10,696 bases of DNA, taken from assembly GCA_919901895.1 (NCBI GenBank), contig CAKKQI010000096.1:1-10696 (forward strand), read 5' to 3'. The stretch comes from Candidatus Brocadiaceae bacterium. GTDB lineage: Bacteria > Planctomycetota > MHYJ01 > JACQXL01 > CAKKQI01. The notes below the pieces were generated by a model, which had not been told where the DNA came from, did not search any database, and worked only from the letters and a program-made list of their open reading frames with translations. Of this stretch, positions 3,260 to 10,696 are shown piece by piece (positions within the stretch are counted from its first letter, which is position 1; the number at the start of each line of letters is the position of its first letter). Position numbers and translations under genes: made by a program.

Positions 3260-4954
3260 TTACTCCGACGGCACCCACACAAAAAATTTACTGCCGCGTC
3301 CTTCCTGACTTTCCACCAAGATTTGCCCTTTGTGTTCCTGAATTATCTTGTAGGCAATCGTCAGTCCTAAACCGATACCTTTCGACTTGGTCGTAAAAAA
3401 CGGTTCATAAATATGTTTCAGGTCATCGGACTTAATCCCCTTGCCAAAATCAATCACTTCTACGGTTAACCCAAGGTCAGGCTTTATTTCAAGCGTCCGG
3501 TGATTAACAATCGCCTGGCCGGGACGGTCCCGGGATGAAAAATAACTTTTAATCACCACTTTCGTCTTCCGGTTACCAGCCGAAGCCTCCAGGGCATTCA
3601 ACCCTAAATTAATAAAGACCTGCTTGATTTGCTCCGGATCAAATTCCCCATAAAGCAGCGCCGGCACCTGAAGATGGACATCAACATTTTTCGCCAGGAA
3701 TTGGTTTCTCAAAAGAGCCGTTACTTCTTTTAGCAATTCCGCTAAATTATATTTTTGTTTTAACACCGGCCGGGGCCTGGCAAATTCCAAGAAATCTGTT
3801 ACTATTTTATTAAGACGGTCGGATTCTTTTATAACAATCTCCATTAATTTTTTGTCTTCCAATCTTAAGGCCGGGATGGATTTGATTTCCTGGATTGCGC
3901 CTTTAATGGAAGCCAGCGGATTCCTGATTTCATGGGCGATACTGATACTCATGGTGCTCAAAGCCTGAAGAGTTTCGGTGCGTTTAACTATTTCATCCAT
4001 TTTCTTTTTCAAACTGACATCATTAAGAATGGCGATTTTTCCGCGTTGTTTGTTTTGCTCATCCCAGAGCGGCGAAGTGGTAACTTCTATTATTAAATTT
4101 TCGCCCCAGCCGGTCGGCATTGTTATCTCCTGAATAACACGCTGATTATTTTTCAAGGCTTCTCTTAAAGAACGATAGTTCTCGCCGGCCAGGACCTGGG
4201 TAATTGCCCGTCCGCCCAATTTTGTTTCTTCAGGAACCTGAAGCAATTGAAGAGCCTGGTTATTCCAAAAAATGATCCGACCTTCGGTGTTAACCACAAT
4301 TAAACCATTAATAATATGCTGGATAATTTCTTCTTTCAGCGTCCGTTCATGTTTCAATTCTCGGGCTAATCGTCCGCTGGAATAAGATACAAAATGCAGC
4401 ATCAGGGCAAAGAAAAACAGATAAGGCAAAATAAATTGAAAACCCTGGGCCAGGGTTTTTACATATTCATCAGGCAACAACGGTAACGGAAAATGCCGGT
4501 GGGCGCTTAAGGAATAAATGATTGTGACGATGGACAGCAAGATACTTGAAGCGGAGGCGAAAACAAAACTGGCCCGGGCCGATACCAGCGTATTGGCTGC
4601 TAAAATTGAAGCAAAATAAAAGGAAACAAAAATACTGCCTGACCCGCCGGTAAAATAAGCCAGGCCTGTTTCTAAAAATATATCAACCGCTATCTGGAAA
4701 AGAGCTAATTTTTTAAGATTAAGCCATTTTTTATTAATAAGCAATAGGTAAAGAATATTTACAAAGCAGGCGAAGACCAGAATGGAATAAGCAGCGATAA
4801 TCCGGGACGGAAATTGTTTAATTTCCCCCAACCCGTGATAAATAAGGATGGCGCCTATACCTAAAATCGCAACCGTGAGACGAAAAAAAAGGAACCACTT
4901 TAACCGCCGATGAAGTAATGCGCTTTCTTCATTGACATGGCGGACCGGATTCAA
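3260..4954 (-). CDS. pilS: PilS-like membrane sensor histidine kinase
   Basis: This two-component sensor is of the PilS/NtrB type, known in other bacteria to control pilin transcription by phosphorylating the activator PilR. The 564 residues begin with about six membrane segments (roughly 18-40, 51-73, 83-102, 105-125, 128-148, 168-190), including the PilS-like DIFLETGLAYFTGGSGS at 91-107. A PAS domain follows (about 205-310), then the H-box IAHEIRNPLASIKGAI with phosphorylated His341, N-box N453, the IDFGKG box at 501-506, the EPFFTTKSKG region and GIGLGL at 526-531. All catalytic boxes look intact. The frame opens just after an in-frame TAA (4960-4958). The only usable start I see is TTG 4954, without a clear ribosome binding site, 39 bases after pilC, so coupling to pilC is likely. 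No pilR follows: the next gene is rho on the opposite strand. Another role for the kinase is possible. Confidence 0.85.
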   Translation of the reverse strand: MNPVRHVNEESALLHRRLKWFLFFRLTVAILGIGAILIYHGLGEIKQFPSRIIAAYSILVFACFVNILYLLLINKKWLNLKKLALFQIAVDIFLETGLAYFTGGSGSIFVSFYFASILAANTLVSARASFVFASASSILLSIVTIIYSLSAHRHFPLPLLPDEYVKTLAQGFQFILPYLFFFALMLHFVSYSSGRLARELKHERTLKEEIIQHIINGLIVVNTEGRIIFWNNQALQLLQVPEETKLGGRAITQVLAGENYRSLREALKNNQRVIQEITMPTGWGENLIIEVTTSPLWDEQNKQRGKIAILNDVSLKKKMDEIVKRTETLQALSTMSISIAHEIRNPLASIKGAIQEIKSIPALRLEDKKLMEIVIKESDRLNKIVTDFLEFARPRPVLKQKYNLAELLKEVTALLRNQFLAKNVDVHLQVPALLYGEFDPEQIKQVFINLGLNALEASAGNRKTKVVIKSYFSSRDRPGQAIVNHRTLEIKPDLGLTVEVIDFGKGIKSDDLKHIYEPFFTTKSKGIGLGLTIAYKIIQEHKGQILVESQEGRGSKFFVWVPSE

Positions 4955-4993: not shown

Positions 4994-6232
4994 TCATTTC
5001 TTTTTGGTTAAGACCTCCTGGATCTTAAGAATCGGCATAAAAACAGCCAGGACGATCCCGCCGACCACCACGCCCATAACGCCGATTAACAAAGGTTCAA
5101 TCATCGCGGTAAGCGATTTGACGGTGGCTTGAACCTGCTGGTCATAAAATTCGGAAATTTTTTCCAATAATTGCTCCAGCGCGCCTGATTTTTCTCCAAT
5201 CCCAATCATTCTGGTAACCATCGGCGGAAAAACTTTGCTCCGCGTCAACGGGTCGCTTAACGTCTCGCCCCGTCTGACGTTTTCCCGGGCATCGTTAACG
5301 GCTTCTTCAATAATCCGGTTACCGGAAGTATTGGCCACAATTTCCAACGCTCCTAAAATCGGGACACCGCTTTTAATCAAGGTGGCGAATGTCCGGCTGA
5401 AACGGGAAATCGCCACTTTCTTAAAAAGGGGACCAAAAACAGGGACCTTCAGAGTCAGCCAGTGAAAAACATATTCCCCACGGCTCGTTCTTTTAAAAAG
5501 AATCACCCCGATTATCAAACCGACCAAACCGAGGGACCAGTAAATAATATAATTGGTCATAAAATCGCTTAAACTTAACAAAAAAACGGTAATCCCGGGC
5601 AAATCAATACTGAGAGAAGAAAATATTTCTTTAAATTTAGGGACAACCCCAACCATTAAACCGATAACGATCAAAAAAATTAAGCCGAGAGATATAACCG
5701 GATAAGTCATCGCTGCTTTGATATCTCTCTTGAGCGCCTGCGAACTTTCCATATACTCAGATAACCTGACGAGGATTACATCAAGTTGACCGCTGGCTTC
5801 ACCGGCTTTAGCCATACTAATGTAAATTTTAGTGAATATTTTCGGATAGGTTTTTAATGCTTCGGACAAATCAGCGCCCCCCCTGATTTTATCAACCATT
5901 GACTCAATTACCAGTTTAAAACCAACCGTTTCCACCTGCTCGCTTAAAACATCCAGCGATTCTACCAGAGGAATACCGGCTGAAATCATGGTGGCCAACT
6001 GGCGCGTAAAAATTACCAGTTCATCCACTTTAATTGTCTTGCTGGGTTTTGGTTTAAAAAGACCGGCGAAAACGCCACCGCCTCCTTTTTTTCCGGCCAA
6101 TGATTTGATGGAAAGCGTTATTAACCCCTGCTTTTTCAAATCGGCGACTACTTCAGATTCGCTGGTAGCTGAAATGGTCCCGGAAAATTTTTTACCTTTA
6201 ATGTCTTTAGCGGCATAAGAAAATTTAGGCAT
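4994..6232 (-). CDS. pilC: Type IV pilus inner-membrane platform protein
   Basis: PilC is the polytopic inner-membrane core of the T4P machine. The extension and retraction ATPases turn it to insert or remove pilins. The 412 residues match the PilC/GspF family in length and layout: an N-terminal segment starting FSYAAKDIKGKKFSGTI, a Gly/Lys/Pro-rich linker (45-65), a first T2SSF domain (about 72-195) with FTRQLATMISAGIPLVESL and KAGEASGQL, membrane segments near 177-197 and 228-246, a second T2SSF domain (about 274-398) with SRFSRTFATLIKSGVPI and IGIGEKSGALEQLL, and a last membrane segment near 377-399 ending MPILKI. The start at 6232 has AAAGGA nine bases upstream. A 12-bp inverted repeat lies between this gene and the preceding pilB. 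The following gene, pilS, starts 39 bases after the TGA stop. Confidence 0.95.
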   Translation of the reverse strand: MPKFSYAAKDIKGKKFSGTISATSESEVVADLKKQGLITLSIKSLAGKKGGGGVFAGLFKPKPSKTIKVDELVIFTRQLATMISAGIPLVESLDVLSEQVETVGFKLVIESMVDKIRGGADLSEALKTYPKIFTKIYISMAKAGEASGQLDVILVRLSEYMESSQALKRDIKAAMTYPVISLGLIFLIVIGLMVGVVPKFKEIFSSLSIDLPGITVFLLSLSDFMTNYIIYWSLGLVGLIIGVILFKRTSRGEYVFHWLTLKVPVFGPLFKKVAISRFSRTFATLIKSGVPILGALEIVANTSGNRIIEEAVNDARENVRRGETLSDPLTRSKVFPPMVTRMIGIGEKSGALEQLLEKISEFYDQQVQATVKSLTAMIEPLLIGVMGVVVGGIVLAVFMPILKIQEVLTKKK

Positions 6233-6369: not shown

Positions 6370-8076
6370 CTAACTGGTAAGACGTTGCACCTCTTCTACT
6401 GAAGTTTCCCCGCGGCTGGCTTTCAGTAAACCGATCTGCCGCAAGGTAAGCATATTCAAACTTTTGACGGCATATGCTTTAATGTCAAGAATGGATTCTT
6501 CATTAATGATCAGGCGTTTAACTTCATCATCAATATCTAATACTTCAAAAAGCGCCATCCGGCCTTTATAACCTTTCAGACACCGTTCGCAGCCGACCGG
6601 GTTACAAAATTTATACTCAGATTCTTCTTTCGGAAGGAAACCAAGCGACATCAAACGTTCTTTTGGTATTTTAACCGCTTCTTTGCAAACCGGGCATAAT
6701 TTACGAAGCAATCTCTGGTTAGCCACCAGCAGAAGTGAAGAAGAAATCATAAAAGGGTCAATACCTAAATCGACTAACCGGGAAACGGTTGAAACCGCAT
6801 CATTAGTATGGAGGGTGCTGAAAACAAGGTGGCCGGTAATAGCGGCTTTAACGGCGATATCGGCCGTTTCCAGGTCACGAATTTCTCCGATCATAATAAT
6901 ATCGGGATCCTGTCGCAAAATTGAACGCAGGGCTTCACCAAAAGTAACGCCGTGGACGGAATCAACCGGCACCTGGATAATACCCGGCAATTGGTATTCC
7001 ACCGGGTCTTCCACGGTCACTAGATTTTCTTCCGGATTATAAATCTGTTTGACGGCGCAATAAAGAGTAGTCGTTTTTCCTGACCCGGTCGGACCACTGA
7101 TTAACACCATGCCGTAAGAAGAATTAATCGACCGGTCAAAAGATTTAAAACTATCGGGCTCAAAACCTAATGCTTCAAGGGATAGGTTAAGAGTGGAAGA
7201 ATCCAACAATCTTAAAACCACTCTTTCGCCGTGAATAGTAGGACTGATTGAAACACGAAAATCGATCCGCCGGTCTTTAAACTTAATCTGGAATTTACCA
7301 TCCTGAGGCACCCGCCGTTCGGAAATATTCAAGGCGCTCATAATTTTAATACGGGAAACAATGGCATTGTGTAATTTTTTAGGCGGGAAGAAAATCTCGT
7401 GCAGAACCCCGTCTTGCCGGAAACGGACCCGGACTTTTTTTTCATACGGCTCAACGTGTATATCACTGGCGCCTTCATTTAAAGCGCGGTAAATAAGCAT
7501 GTTGACCAATTTAACAACCGGTGATTCACTTTCGCCGCTCAACTGGTTGAGATCAAGTTTTTCATTAATGTCCACTCCTTCAGACAGTTCCAGGTCAATA
7601 CCGGCAACATCCTCCAGCGCATCCTGTAATTTGTTATCATCCGGATGATAGGCCTTTTTAATCGCTTCTCTTAAGGGACGCTCCAGAGCCAGAGTCAAAC
7701 GTAGGTCGCATTTAGTTAACAACCGGATATCATCAAACTGAACGACGTCAAAAGGATTATGCACGGCCAGAGTCAAAATATCGCCGATACGCGCCAGCGG
7801 CAAGGCCCCGTATAAAGTAGCCTTTTCCTCGGGAAAAATCTGCAACAGTTTCTCATCCGGCTGAACTTTTTCAATCGAAACAGGCGGGATATTCAGTTCA
7901 CTGGCAATCGCGCCCAGTAATTTTTTTTCGTTAACGAGAGACCGGTCCAAGACAATATCAACCAGCGGTTTATTTTCTTTAGAAGCGGCCTGTTCCACTT
8001 CGATTGATTTTGCTTGGTCAAGTAACCCTCTTTTTACGAGAATACTGTTAATTCTTTTATCAACAACATTTACCAT
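6370..8076 (-). CDS. pilB: Type IV pilus extension ATPase PilB, second paralogue
   Basis: PilB is the cytoplasmic hexameric ATPase that drives pilus extension through PilC. The 568 residues comprise an MshEN-like N-domain (1-~145), an acidic linker (~146-185), the N2 domain from about 186 (PVVKLVNMLIYRALNEGASDIHVEP), and the ATPase domain. Walker A is GPTGSGKTT (328-336), the Asp box TVEDPVEY (354-361), Walker B RQDPDIIMIGEIRD with catalytic Glu398, and the His box STLHTNDA (420-427). The zinc-binding cysteines C461, C464, C496 and C499 are present, so the enzyme looks active. In the N-domain the MshEN ligand positions are mostly lost: the Gly expected in motif 1 is N10, in motif 2 V39 and S46, and the terminal Gln residues are A31 and E60; only G17 remains. 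The start has GGGAG eight bases upstream, 31 bases after the first pilB. It aligns end to end with that gene, so a tandem duplication is likely. Confidence 0.95.
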   Translation of the reverse strand: MVNVVDKRINSILVKRGLLDQAKSIEVEQAASKENKPLVDIVLDRSLVNEKKLLGAIASELNIPPVSIEKVQPDEKLLQIFPEEKATLYGALPLARIGDILTLAVHNPFDVVQFDDIRLLTKCDLRLTLALERPLREAIKKAYHPDDNKLQDALEDVAGIDLELSEGVDINEKLDLNQLSGESESPVVKLVNMLIYRALNEGASDIHVEPYEKKVRVRFRQDGVLHEIFFPPKKLHNAIVSRIKIMSALNISERRVPQDGKFQIKFKDRRIDFRVSISPTIHGERVVLRLLDSSTLNLSLEALGFEPDSFKSFDRSINSSYGMVLISGPTGSGKTTTLYCAVKQIYNPEENLVTVEDPVEYQLPGIIQVPVDSVHGVTFGEALRSILRQDPDIIMIGEIRDLETADIAVKAAITGHLVFSTLHTNDAVSTVSRLVDLGIDPFMISSSLLLVANQRLLRKLCPVCKEAVKIPKERLMSLGFLPKEESEYKFCNPVGCERCLKGYKGRMALFEVLDIDDEVKRLIINEESILDIKAYAVKSLNMLTLRQIGLLKASRGETSVEEVQRLTS

Positions 8077-8107: not shown

Positions 8108-9820
8108 CTACAGTTCCGTCATTCGTAAAACTTCTTCAATTGTTGTCTTCCCTTTCATAACATTTAGAAGGCCGCACCGTCTCAGGGTAATCATTCCCTC
8201 GTTTTTTACGGCATATTCTTTGAGATCAAGCGTCGGCACCTTTTTAATAATCATTTTTCTAATTTCGTCGTCAATTTCCAATGCTTCCAGAAAAGCAAAT
8301 CGGCCTTTGTACCCGTCCCGGCAACGACCGCAACCGGCCGCCCGGTAAAGCACCAGATTATCTTTCAGTTCTTCTTCTTTAAAACCGACCGATCTTAGTT
8401 TTTCCTGAGACGGCATTTTATCATAAGGCCGTTTACACAAATCGCAAAGTTTACGAGCCAGACGCTGAGCCCCGATTAAGATAACCGATAAGGAAACAAG
8501 AAAACTGTCCACCCCCATATCAATTAATCGGGCAGTAGCTGAAGCGGCGTCATTGGTATGAAGCGTGCTCAAAACCAAGTGCCCGGTCATCGCAGCTTTA
8601 ATGGCAATATCAGCCGTTTCGTTATCTCTGATTTCTCCCACCATCACTTTATTAGGGTCCTGCCTCAAGATCGAACGCAAGGCCACGGCAAAAGTAAGGC
8701 CTCGTTTAGCGTTAACCGGCACCTGGCCGACCCCTTCCAACTGGTATTCTACCGGGTCTTCCACGGTCATCAGATTATCTTCTACGGACATAATTTCTTT
8801 TAAAGCCGAATAGAGGGTCGTGCTTTTGCCGCTACCCGTTGGTCCGGTAACCAGAATCATTCCGTATGAAGCGGCCACCGCCCGGCGAAAGGCATCCAGC
8901 GCCTGTGGTTCGAACCCTAAAGCATCTAATCCTAAGGTAATACTGGAAGAGTCAAGTACCCGCAGTACTATTTTTTCTCCAAATATGGTCGGGAGAACAG
9001 AAACGCGGAAGTCAATCTGCCGTCCCTCATAACGCATCTGGAATTTTCCATCCTGCGGTTTTCTTTTTTCGGCAATATCCAGCGAGGTCATAATTTTGAT
9101 ACGGGAAACCATAGCGTTAAAAATTTTCTTAGGCGGCGTTAAGGCATCGTGCAATACGCCATCCTTACGGTAACGAACCAAGACTTTCTTTTCAAAAGGT
9201 TCAATATGAATATCGCTGGCTCCCTGTTCCAATCCCTTAAAAATAACCATATTAACCAGCTTAATAATAGGGGCATCTTCGCCGGTAAGTTCCTGGTCGT
9301 CGGTCGGCGCTTGAGCCGCGCCGTCGGTTAACTCCAAATCTTCGGTAATACTTTCCTCCAGGGCTTTTTCCATCTCTTCGGTCTGGGGATTATAAATCCG
9401 CTGGATGGTCTCCAATATTTTTTTCTCGCTACTGATAACTATTTTAATCTCGCAACCGGTCAACCGGCGGAGGTCATCCAGCATAATAATATCAAAAGGA
9501 TTAGCGATGGCGATGGTCATAACCTTGTTAATCTTAAAAAGCGGCATTACTTTATGGCCTTTGACCTGATCTTCGGTAAATAAATTAACTACTTTTTCAT
9601 CGGGGGTAATCTTATTAAGGTCAACCGGCGGTGCTTTAGCTTCGGACGCCATGATTGAAAGAAAAGTCGGCTCGGGAACAATGTTATGAGCGGTCAGTAA
9701 TTCTGAAAAAGAAAGACCCTCGCGGGCCGCCTGAGCGATATGTTTTTCGCAGTCCTCGGACGTCAGAACTTTTCTTTTTTCCAGAAGGCGGACCAATCTT
9801 TTATCAAAATTAATTTTCAT
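8108..9820 (-). CDS. pilB: Type IV pilus extension ATPase PilB, first paralogue
   Basis: The 570 residues have the same layout as the neighbouring paralogue: MshEN-like N-domain (1-~145), acidic linker (~147-184), N2 domain (APIIKLVNMVIFKGLEQGASDIHIEP), and ATPase domain with Walker A GPTGSGKST (326-334), Asp box TVEDPVEY (352-359), Walker B RQDPNKVMVGEIRD with Glu396, His box STLHTNDA (418-425) and zinc cysteines C459, C462, C497 and C500. It therefore looks catalytically complete. All MshEN ligand-type Gly and Gln positions checked are replaced: V10, K17 and A31 in motif 1, S39, N46 and E60 in motif 2. Its ATG overlaps the stop of the upstream small gene as ATGA (9820-9817), which implies translational coupling and roughly matched production of the two. 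Whether the two PilBs form mixed hexamers or separate motors cannot be told from sequence. Confidence 0.95.
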   Translation of the reverse strand: MKINFDKRLVRLLEKRKVLTSEDCEKHIAQAAREGLSFSELLTAHNIVPEPTFLSIMASEAKAPPVDLNKITPDEKVVNLFTEDQVKGHKVMPLFKINKVMTIAIANPFDIIMLDDLRRLTGCEIKIVISSEKKILETIQRIYNPQTEEMEKALEESITEDLELTDGAAQAPTDDQELTGEDAPIIKLVNMVIFKGLEQGASDIHIEPFEKKVLVRYRKDGVLHDALTPPKKIFNAMVSRIKIMTSLDIAEKRKPQDGKFQMRYEGRQIDFRVSVLPTIFGEKIVLRVLDSSSITLGLDALGFEPQALDAFRRAVAASYGMILVTGPTGSGKSTTLYSALKEIMSVEDNLMTVEDPVEYQLEGVGQVPVNAKRGLTFAVALRSILRQDPNKVMVGEIRDNETADIAIKAAMTGHLVLSTLHTNDAASATARLIDMGVDSFLVSLSVILIGAQRLARKLCDLCKRPYDKMPSQEKLRSVGFKEEELKDNLVLYRAAGCGRCRDGYKGRFAFLEALEIDDEIRKMIIKKVPTLDLKEYAVKNEGMITLRRCGLLNVMKGKTTIEEVLRMTEL

Positions 9821-10287
9821 CTCTTCATCTGTTTCTCTTGGTCGGGAGATTGGTAATTTTTAATTACCTGCTTGATCTGAGAAGTGGTGCTGACGAAAAA
9901 ATAAATTTCTCCTGGTATTTTCTTTTCCAACTCTTCTAAAGTATTTTCACTCATTGAACCGGCCACGGTAAAAGTAACCACGTCTCCGATTTTATCAAGC
10001 GGCGCCATCTGGTTTTTTTCCCAGAACTCCACCGGCATCAACTTGAAAATTTCAACGTTCCCCGTATAACTTAAAGCGTTAATATAAGGCAAACCCATCT
10101 GGGTGGAAAGAGCGCCGGCGATATCAAGTTCAGTTACGTAACCGAGTTTGATTAACGCCTCCCCCAACAGAAGACCGCTTTTCTGCTGCTCGGCCAACGC
10201 TTCCTGAACCTGGTTGTCATGAATCAGGCCTTCGGCAATCAGAATTTCACCCAATCTTTTTTTGGTAATCTTAGAAATATTAGCCAT
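9817..10287 (-). CDS. Free-standing MshEN-domain protein, probable c-di-GMP receptor for the pilus motor
   Basis: This 156-residue protein consists of an MshEN (GspE/PilB N-terminal) domain with no ATPase. Two tandem 24-residue motifs are visible, R11-Q34 and L40-Q63, separated by exactly five residues. Both keep the defining positions: LG (12-13, 41-42), the second Gly (G20, G49) and the closing Gln (Q34, Q63). In MshE this arrangement binds cyclic di-GMP. Residues 64-145 match the rest of the PilB N-domain (PYINAL, LMPVEFWEKNQMAPLDKIGDVVTFTVA, then IKQVIKNYQSP). The protein stops just where the acidic linker of the PilBs begins, so it looks like a PilB N-domain without its motor. It lies between pilT and two pilBs and overlaps the first by ATGA. 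The ATG has no Shine-Dalgarno site. The promoter immediately upstream would give a leaderless message. Domain assignment is firm; the in-trans regulatory role is inferred. Confidence 0.85.
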   Translation of the reverse strand: MANISKITKKRLGEILIAEGLIHDNQVQEALAEQQKSGLLLGEALIKLGYVTELDIAGALSTQMGLPYINALSYTGNVEIFKLMPVEFWEKNQMAPLDKIGDVVTFTVAGSMSENTLEELEKKIPGEIYFFVSTTSQIKQVIKNYQSPDQEKQMKR

Positions 10288-10294
10288 ATATATT

Positions 10295-10323
10295 ATTATA
10301 TCACAAAATTAATTACTTTTCAA
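10295..10323 (-). promoter_or_regulatory. Near-consensus extended -10 promoter inside the end of pilT
   Basis: On the minus strand, -35 TTGAAA (10323-10318, five of six) is followed after exactly 17 bases by a perfect TATAAT (10300-10295), preceded by TG one base upstream (TGATATAAT). Only seven bases separate the -10 from the ATG at 10287, so transcription should start at or next to the A of the start codon. The -35 lies within the last pilT codons. Confidence 0.65.
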
Positions 10324-10696
10324 CAAGTTTCTTTTCAGGTCATCCGGATCAGGACTGTAATTAAGAGCGATTTCGTAAGTAATTAATCCCCCTTGATGGA
10401 GTTCCGTTAAAGCCTGATTCATTGTTTTCATCCCCAATTTGGCGCTGGTTTGAATGACTGAATAAATCTGATGAATTTTATTATCACGAAGTAAGGCCCG
10501 GACAGCCGGATTAGCCACCATAATTTCAGACGCCAAAACCCGCCCTTTGGCATTGGCCCGGGGGATGAGTTGCTGGGAGAGGACCCCTTCCAGGACCATG
10601 GAGAGCTGGGCGCGCACCTGCGATTGCTGGTGGGGAGGGAGGACATCGATGATCCGGTTCATCGTCTGCGCGCAGGAATTCGTGTGCAGGGTGGCC
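10309..10696 (-). CDS. pilT: Type IV pilus retraction ATPase PilT, 3' part (runs off the right edge)
   Basis: PilT is the hexameric ATPase that depolymerises the pilus for retraction and twitching. The last 128 codons are visible, beginning in the His box ATLHTNS and ending at TAA 10311-10309. Family landmarks are NRIIDVLPPHQQSQVRAQLS, LEGVLSQQLIPR, GRVLASEIMV, AVRALLRDNKIHQIYSVIQT, and MKTMNQALTELHQGGLITYEIAL near the C-terminus. PilB-type proteins do not have this C-terminus. ATG 10662 is internal, not the true start: the frame continues to the window edge. The 5' 47 visible codons are strongly GC-ending while the rest are not, with a sharp change near 10555. A promoter for the next gene begins in its final codons. 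Confidence 0.95.
   Translation of the reverse strand, partial: ATLHTNSCAQTMNRIIDVLPPHQQSQVRAQLSMVLEGVLSQQLIPRANAKGRVLASEIMVANPAVRALLRDNKIHQIYSVIQTSAKLGMKTMNQALTELHQGGLITYEIALNYSPDPDDLKRNLLKSN

Follow-up and report, generated by a model that had tools for sequence, protein, structure and literature searches.

A free-standing MshEN protein encoded beside site-less PilB ATPases as a candidate c-di-GMP receptor of the type IV pilus motor in Planctomycetota and Omnitrophota

The locus and its free-standing MshEN gene

The window investigated here, meaning the whole stretch of 10,696 nucleotides, is contig C96 of the 2.5 Mb draft genome (93% complete) of a Candidatus Brocadiaceae bacterium of the Planctomycetota (GCA_919901895.1, contig CAKKQI010000096.1). 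Open reading frames (ORFs) and Pfam and NCBIfam profiles gave the minus-strand gene order as the end of pilT, a small gene of a family here called F, pilB1, pilB2, pilC and a gene for a PilS-like kinase. F was identified from its ORF and from MshEN profiles as a free-standing MshEN protein of 156 amino acids (9817..10287, minus strand, as for all features of the window given below unless noted), and its gene overlaps pilB1 in an ATGA stop/start (9817..9820). The reading favoured here, with a probability of about 0.6, is that F is a free-standing MshEN-type receptor of cyclic di-GMP (c-di-GMP) and works in trans for the motor that extends the type IV pilus.

MshEN was the sole Pfam domain of F (PF05157, 38.9 bits against a cut-off of 23.1), and NF053729, the NCBIfam model of the 53-residue c-di-GMP motif, covered F end to end (65.9 bits, E = 2e-18, cut-off 38). 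The best sequence match in the PDB was Thermus thermophilus PilF (6f8l, E = 5.5e-23), and by computation F has the MshEN fold. Pfam found no PilZ, EAL or GGDEF domain in F, which places it outside the PilZ/FimX-type family of trans regulators. Among the F homologues listed the annotated names were hypothetical protein, PilB or GspE, and most carried none; a count at E ≤ 1e-10 gave 1469 proteins, of which not every one need belong to F. The closest titled locus (L038), from a Planctomycetota metagenome-assembled genome, showed 72% identity in F.

Sequence and alignment located two 24-residue motifs separated by a five-residue spacer, motif I at residues R11-Q34 (10186..10257) and motif II at residues L40-Q63 (10099..10170), the latter with Leu instead of Arg in position 1. 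The Gly in position 3 and the Gln in position 24 were kept in both (G13, Q34, G42 and Q63), and these four residues make up the core score used below for each domain. The strict motif of 2016 (PMC5013675) has Arg in position 1 and Leu in position 17 of both motifs, and F departs from it at Leu40, Val27 and Ile56 as well as at Tyr50. Leu40 is allowed by the consensus of PMC11731258, in which position 1 was extended to R/K/L; Val27, Tyr50 and Ile56 fall outside both consensus forms. As read from the sequence, "intact" is for F to be understood as every Gly and Gln contact kept, with the remaining changes conservative. Among the F proteins adjacent to pilB, position 1 of motif II was Leu in 25 and Met in 9 of 37 Planctomycetota rows, and Leu in all five Omnitrophota rows. 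Their ligand-contact columns were about twice as conserved as the other columns of the N-subdomain (0.83 vs 1.68 bits, p = 3e-4, n = 37). On such grounds F very probably binds c-di-GMP. The C-terminal MshEN subdomain, residues 64-150 (9838..10098), is like the GspL-binding N-domain of GspE.

PilB1 (570 amino acids, 8108..9820; T2SSE 443 bits) and PilB2 (568 amino acids, 6370..8076; T2SSE 452 bits) are extension ATPases with motif-less N-domains. Their degenerate motif regions, residues 8-60 in each (9641..9799 in PilB1, 7897..8055 in PilB2), kept none of the four core residues, and the motif columns were occupied by V10, K17, A31, S39, N46 and E60 in PilB1 and by N10, G17, A31, V39, S46 and E60 in PilB2. 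The ungapped register against F was the best one for PilB2 (12/53 identical) and tied-best for PilB1 (10/53), in agreement with the hidden Markov model alignment; NF053729 was listed for neither at E ≤ 1e-3. With the motif on the ATPase itself not intact, both stand apart from the cis-binding ATPases of the MshE type. The best NCBIfam match of both was TIGR02538, type IVa PilB, at 659 bits for PilB1 and 642 bits for PilB2 against an equivalog cut-off of 675.65, and the GspE model gave 588 and 560 bits against 630.25. Their context, an operon with pilT and pilC and a pilM in the genome, fits type IVa PilB. In a domain tree the two N-domains cluster with N-domains from the same order (10 rows, support 93), which suggests that the duplication took place within the lineage; two PilBs after F were also seen in some Omnitrophota operons (L071, L073 and L075).

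An earlier note, made from the sequence alone, had described the small protein as MshEN with two intact motifs and both PilBs as having lost theirs. The identity and the losses were recovered residue by residue, as were its ORFs, coordinates and ATGA overlap. The intactness of F held for motif length, spacer, Gly and Gln and is to be qualified for Leu40 and the three off-consensus positions. Its span of 8108..10287 leaves out PilB2 at 6370-8076.

The remaining features of the window are the 3′ part of pilT, encoding the retraction ATPase and cut by the window end (10309..10695; TIGR01420 pilT_fam, 139 bits over model positions 225-343, a score below the whole-protein cut-off because the window holds only part of PilT), the platform protein PilC (4994..6232; T2SSF 218 bits) and the PilS-like sensor histidine kinase (3260..4954; 6TM_PilS 40.6 bits, HisKA, HATPase_c and PAS). 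A 203-residue protein at positions 1-609, also cut by the window end, has a single hydrophobic stretch close to its start and no match in Pfam or NCBIfam. The source genome also encodes PilM, PilO and six GGDEF proteins; GGDEF was found in all 59 genomes searched. On contig C13 of the same genome, a GspE-type ATPase of 734 amino acids (L359:392-2596, plus strand) has, by Pfam, MshEN at its N-terminus and PilZ at its C-terminus, and so bears two domains of c-di-GMP type on a single motor, although its MshEN keeps 1/4 core residues (L003).

Distribution and origin of F

MshEN genes just upstream of pilB numbered 42, and removal of L177, L183 and L231 (outside the F group), of L128 (a duplicate of L046) and of four Omnitrophota rows left 34 distinct pairs outside Omnitrophota (Planctomycetota; for one the phylum is not in the title). 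F kept all four core residues in 31 of these, the exceptions keeping 3, 2 and 1, and the neighbouring PilB kept none in 30 and one in 4. In 26 of the 34 pairs pilT immediately precedes F; the upstream flank fetched for G003, G004, G007, G008 and G012 shows none. Of 97 Omnitrophota genomes searched, 58 contained a short ORF (≤205 amino acids) at E ≤ 1e-38. The 37 loci read gave 31 pair rows, which after removal of one duplicate and one Kuenenia row made 29 distinct pairs; the six loci without a pair were L320 and L327 (PilB in two frames), L321 (contig edge), L324 and L325 (PilB hits) and L352 (no PilB called downstream). F was complete (4/4) in all 29, and the PilBs kept no core residue in 2, one in 24 and two in 3. 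In total, 63 distinct pairs were found in two phyla, with F complete in 60 and never more than two core residues in the neighbouring PilB. The earlier note had suggested a survey of the pilT-MshEN-pilB order, and F, usually following pilT, does precede pilB in both phyla; the co-encoded intact, motor-less copy, which it had called the unusual part, is not rare as an adjacent pair in Planctomycetota and Omnitrophota. The route of site loss differs: in Planctomycetota PilBs the first Gln has mostly given way to A/S and the second to E/D, whereas in those of Omnitrophota both glycines are usually gone and the first Gln is retained. One pilT-F-pilB locus (L063:7863-11224) belongs to a record titled Candidatus Kuenenia stuttgartiensis, an anammox bacterium and a possible enrichment-culture model.

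The first scan (L038-L117; 80 of 110 relatives kept) selects for intact motifs, and its motif-keeping PilBs were therefore not used as a control for loss. The ATPase domain of PilB1 alone was used instead as query against the source genome and 58 relatives, and 30 loci and 80 fetched stretches were read. Among the matches listed, ATPases of at least 440 bits kept no core residue in 38 and one in 6 of 44 N-domains; among those listed at 200-440 bits, comprising more distant ATPases and some cut-off PilBs, 33 of 76 kept all four and 32 kept none. Over all loci up to L267, the motif was absent from 52 of 52 members of the PilB clade (no core residue in 43, one in 9). pilT abutted a motif-less pilB with no F between them in 14 genomes among the matches listed, and in 13 of these F was found elsewhere with the core full in 6, at three residues in 1 and at two or fewer in 6. 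An adjacent F as the cause of the motif loss was rejected on account of these 14 genomes, and the simple link between loss and adjacent free gene that had been suggested for a survey is not supported: clade-wide loss, with or without an adjacent F, means that the loss belongs to the PilB clade and not to the F next door.

In the PilB clade the ligand-contact columns showed no contrast with other N-subdomain columns (2.12 vs 2.40 bits, p = 0.16, n = 52). The Gln position of motif II held E in 30 and D in 16 of the 52, and that of motif I held A or S in 44; judged from these columns, the acidic and A/S replacements may mark a new interface. PilB-PilT-PilB tandems of Planctomycetota, a second type IV pilus-like system beside the split-sensor one, retained all four core residues on each of their ATPases in 8 of 10 cases among the matches listed (L172, L174, L186, L189, L193, L198, L208 and L219; exceptions L176 and L185).

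F was present in 36 of the 40 genomes with this PilB clade and in 1 of the 19 without it (G058), or in 3 of 19 when the weakly placed G038 and G047 are counted (Fisher p = 2e-10 and 3e-8, respectively; 59 genomes including the source). The 40 include G010 and G042, partial matches with 74% and 68% identity. Co-occurrence across related genomes, which had been set as a test in the earlier note, is thus seen at 36/40 vs 1-3/19. Both traits were sought by similarity to the proteins of the window, so that distance from the window is a possible confounder. The PilB clade was without F in G005 (56% complete), in G006 and G017 (in both, pilB lies at a contig end) and in G051. Genus g14 had one genome with both and four with neither. 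In G038 the order pilT, free MshEN, pilC was observed with no pilB between (L229:2414-5335, minus strand), and the ATPase-domain query did not find the PilB clade in this genome among the matches listed.

The domain tree was made from 161 MshEN domains with 22 motif columns removed. Random sampling supplied 34 of the 52 PilBs and, from the other ATPases, 26 of the 78 that keep the motif and 14 of the 49 that are motif-poor; of the 96 free domains 87 were included, the nine dropped being fragments or of unclear frame. A group of 61 free proteins was obtained (support 79 for the whole and 91 for 60 of them), of which 39 are pil-linked and 22 were not seen beside pil genes, L036 and L044 among the latter ending at a contig edge. 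The PilB N-domains fall elsewhere in the tree (36 rows, support 95), and five Omnitrophota F rows form a group of their own (support 95) in an uncertain place. On this tree, whose deep forks are weak, F is more plausibly an old paralogue than a fragment of the neighbouring PilB.

Unlinked F copies often carry a C-terminal tail with a W..LFD-like stretch (W..LFD.A...V), which could be a docking peptide; four of the seven tailed copies (L228, L230, L234, L235, L250, L252 and L253) keep two or fewer core residues. No shared neighbour of unlinked copies was found in the four of 22 loci scanned (L049, L248, L252 and L228), a few genes of each being covered. A second free MshEN family of about 200 amino acids, whose motifs are mostly intact and whose C-terminus holds a stretch similar to LLIEK..ITEEE, is separate from F in the tree (L232, L233, L240, L242, L246, L247 and L262). 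Two free MshEN genes with intact motifs were also found on one contig of candidate division TA06 (L114:1200-1652 and 4371-4811), a locus of 11.6 kb with no match to the pil proteins of the window.

A proposed receptor in trans and its rivals

The proposed mechanism may be depicted as follows: F, whose fold and motifs are computed, would bind one c-di-GMP through its two 24-residue motifs, and the binding is probably tight because a hydrophobic residue opens motif II. GSPII-B of Thermus PilF, with Lys and Leu in the first positions of its motifs, binds c-di-GMP at 6 nM, and a hydrophobic first residue is stated to predict very high affinity (PMC11731258); two Leu to Ile changes together cost PilF 2.4-fold (PMC12002112). 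PilB1 and PilB2, with their motifs lost, would be unable to bind the ligand themselves. Gene order and overlap indicate that F is produced together with PilB from one operon. F would then dock, through its C-terminal subdomain, on the motor or platform, likeliest on the PilB N-domain ring or on PilM, an equal candidate as partner, and c-di-GMP would alter this docking contact and hence PilB activity. That F acts on the pilus motor is considered probable, though less so than ligand binding. The trans sensor for PilB proposed in the earlier note stands in so far as a predicted c-di-GMP-binding MshEN is co-encoded with a site-less PilB in 63 pairs; its "split off" origin is not supported, since F does not cluster with the N-domains of the neighbouring PilBs once the motif columns are taken out, the fork uniting F having a support of only 79. 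A fuller picture is offered tentatively, at somewhat under even odds: a dedicated free MshEN subunit in a hetero-complex with site-less PilB (and PilM), as an ancestral split-sensor architecture across both phyla, whose set point would be nanomolar owing to the Leu or Met that motif II has in place of Arg.

Several observations weigh against a c-di-GMP receptor serving the motor. The Rho tree covered 50 of the 59 genomes and offered just two independent contrasts on well supported branches; these agree in nearly all pairings but are too few for significance. G058 has F without this PilB clade, and G051 the PilB clade without F. The core is incomplete in some adjacent F proteins (1/4 in G013, two residues in one G050 copy, three in G010 and G011), and 8 of the 22 unlinked copies keep two or fewer core residues, which weakens the view that F always senses c-di-GMP. 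Motifs alone do not suffice: in PMC12002112, restoring the motifs of full PilF GSPII-A failed to make it bind, and in the trimmed domain binding was abolished by Ser for Arg in position 1 of motif II. PDB titles list c-di-GMP-bound crystals of GSPII-B Q190E and Q218E; Q-to-E alone may thus not abolish binding, and the loss of the site in PilB rests on the missing glycines too.

The chief role of F might instead lie in the structure or assembly of the pilus base, for instance in stabilising the PilB N-domain or as an adaptor of PilM, with the c-di-GMP site as an optional addition. This is unlikely, though F with at most 2/4 core residues is kept away from pil genes in seven PilB-clade genomes (G034, G036, G037, G046, G048, G054 and G056) and lies beside pilB with 1/4 in G013, copies which suggest a role outliving the site; X. 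citri PilZ is moreover a precedent for a non-binding partner holding a PilB N-domain (PMC8389850, PMC11656802). The ligand contacts are, however, among the most conserved N-subdomain positions in adjacent F, and the motif-poor copies lie nearly all away from pil genes, so that their tie to the pilus comes from co-occurrence alone.

Somewhat less likely again is a c-di-GMP-gated competitor or inhibitor at the PilM site of the PilB N-domain, with the signal turning extension off or freeing PilB. Against it, the regular operon pairing with pilB suggests a subunit made with the motor, and the sign of the effect is not readable from sequence. CpiA of A. baylyi, considered as a precedent for a stand-alone MshEN, was set aside, its paper reporting no homology to known domains. 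That F and the PilB N-domain are the same domain, adjoining and in the same register, would suit a recent origin of F by fission from that N-domain or by its duplication, and likewise an artefact of assembly; this is very improbable, F having its own gene and stop in dozens of genomes of two phyla and branching apart from the PilB N-domains.

Relation to known systems

The arrangement is like that of Thermus thermophilus PilF, an extension ATPase that combines GSPII-A, which does not bind, with GSPII-B, which does (Leu in position 1 of motif II); the PilF domains share one polypeptide, whereas the binding domain here is a separate protein. The motor of PilF depends on its GSPII domains in cis, and stimulation by PilMN requires GSPII-C (PMC6325625). 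With Vibrio cholerae MshE, Myxococcus PilB and C. perfringens PilB2 (the latter two in PMC11656802) F shares the 53-residue binding domain and its fold, but these carry it in cis on the ATPase, whereas in the present case the site is lost from the copy on the ATPase and present in the free one. As in Xanthomonas citri, where a PilB without MshEN motif receives c-di-GMP input via the trans partners PilZ and FimX (PMC8389850), the input would come in trans; the receptor would, however, belong to MshEN and have no bridge known so far, unlike the EAL-domain receptor bridged by PilZ. NfrB and other MshEN fusions also place MshEN outside a secretion ATPase, and the NfrB model gave 42 bits on the MshEN part of F; unlike the glycosyltransferase fusion NfrB, F is a single-domain pilus-operon protein.

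No description of a free-standing MshEN pilus subunit was found in the literature searched, a scope that ends before supplements, those of Wang et al. tabulating many MshEN proteins. PMC12388122, taken up as a paper on both MshEN and a Planctomycete, matched by an author name only. The MshEN domain and the trans regulation of a motif-less PilB were already known; what appears to be new is that a free MshEN gene recurs in the pilus operons of two phyla.

If F is the receptor proposed here, it would provide a defined link from c-di-GMP to pili in two large, mostly uncultured phyla, including anammox bacteria, and would account for a c-di-GMP response of site-less PilBs. The effect of the MshEN/N1 domain on the motor has been called poorly understood (PMC11656802). 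F and PilB would represent a natural two-piece MshE/PilF, with a sensor that can be titrated independently of the motor. The action of MshEN/N1 on the motor would become directly testable by adding or omitting a small soluble protein.
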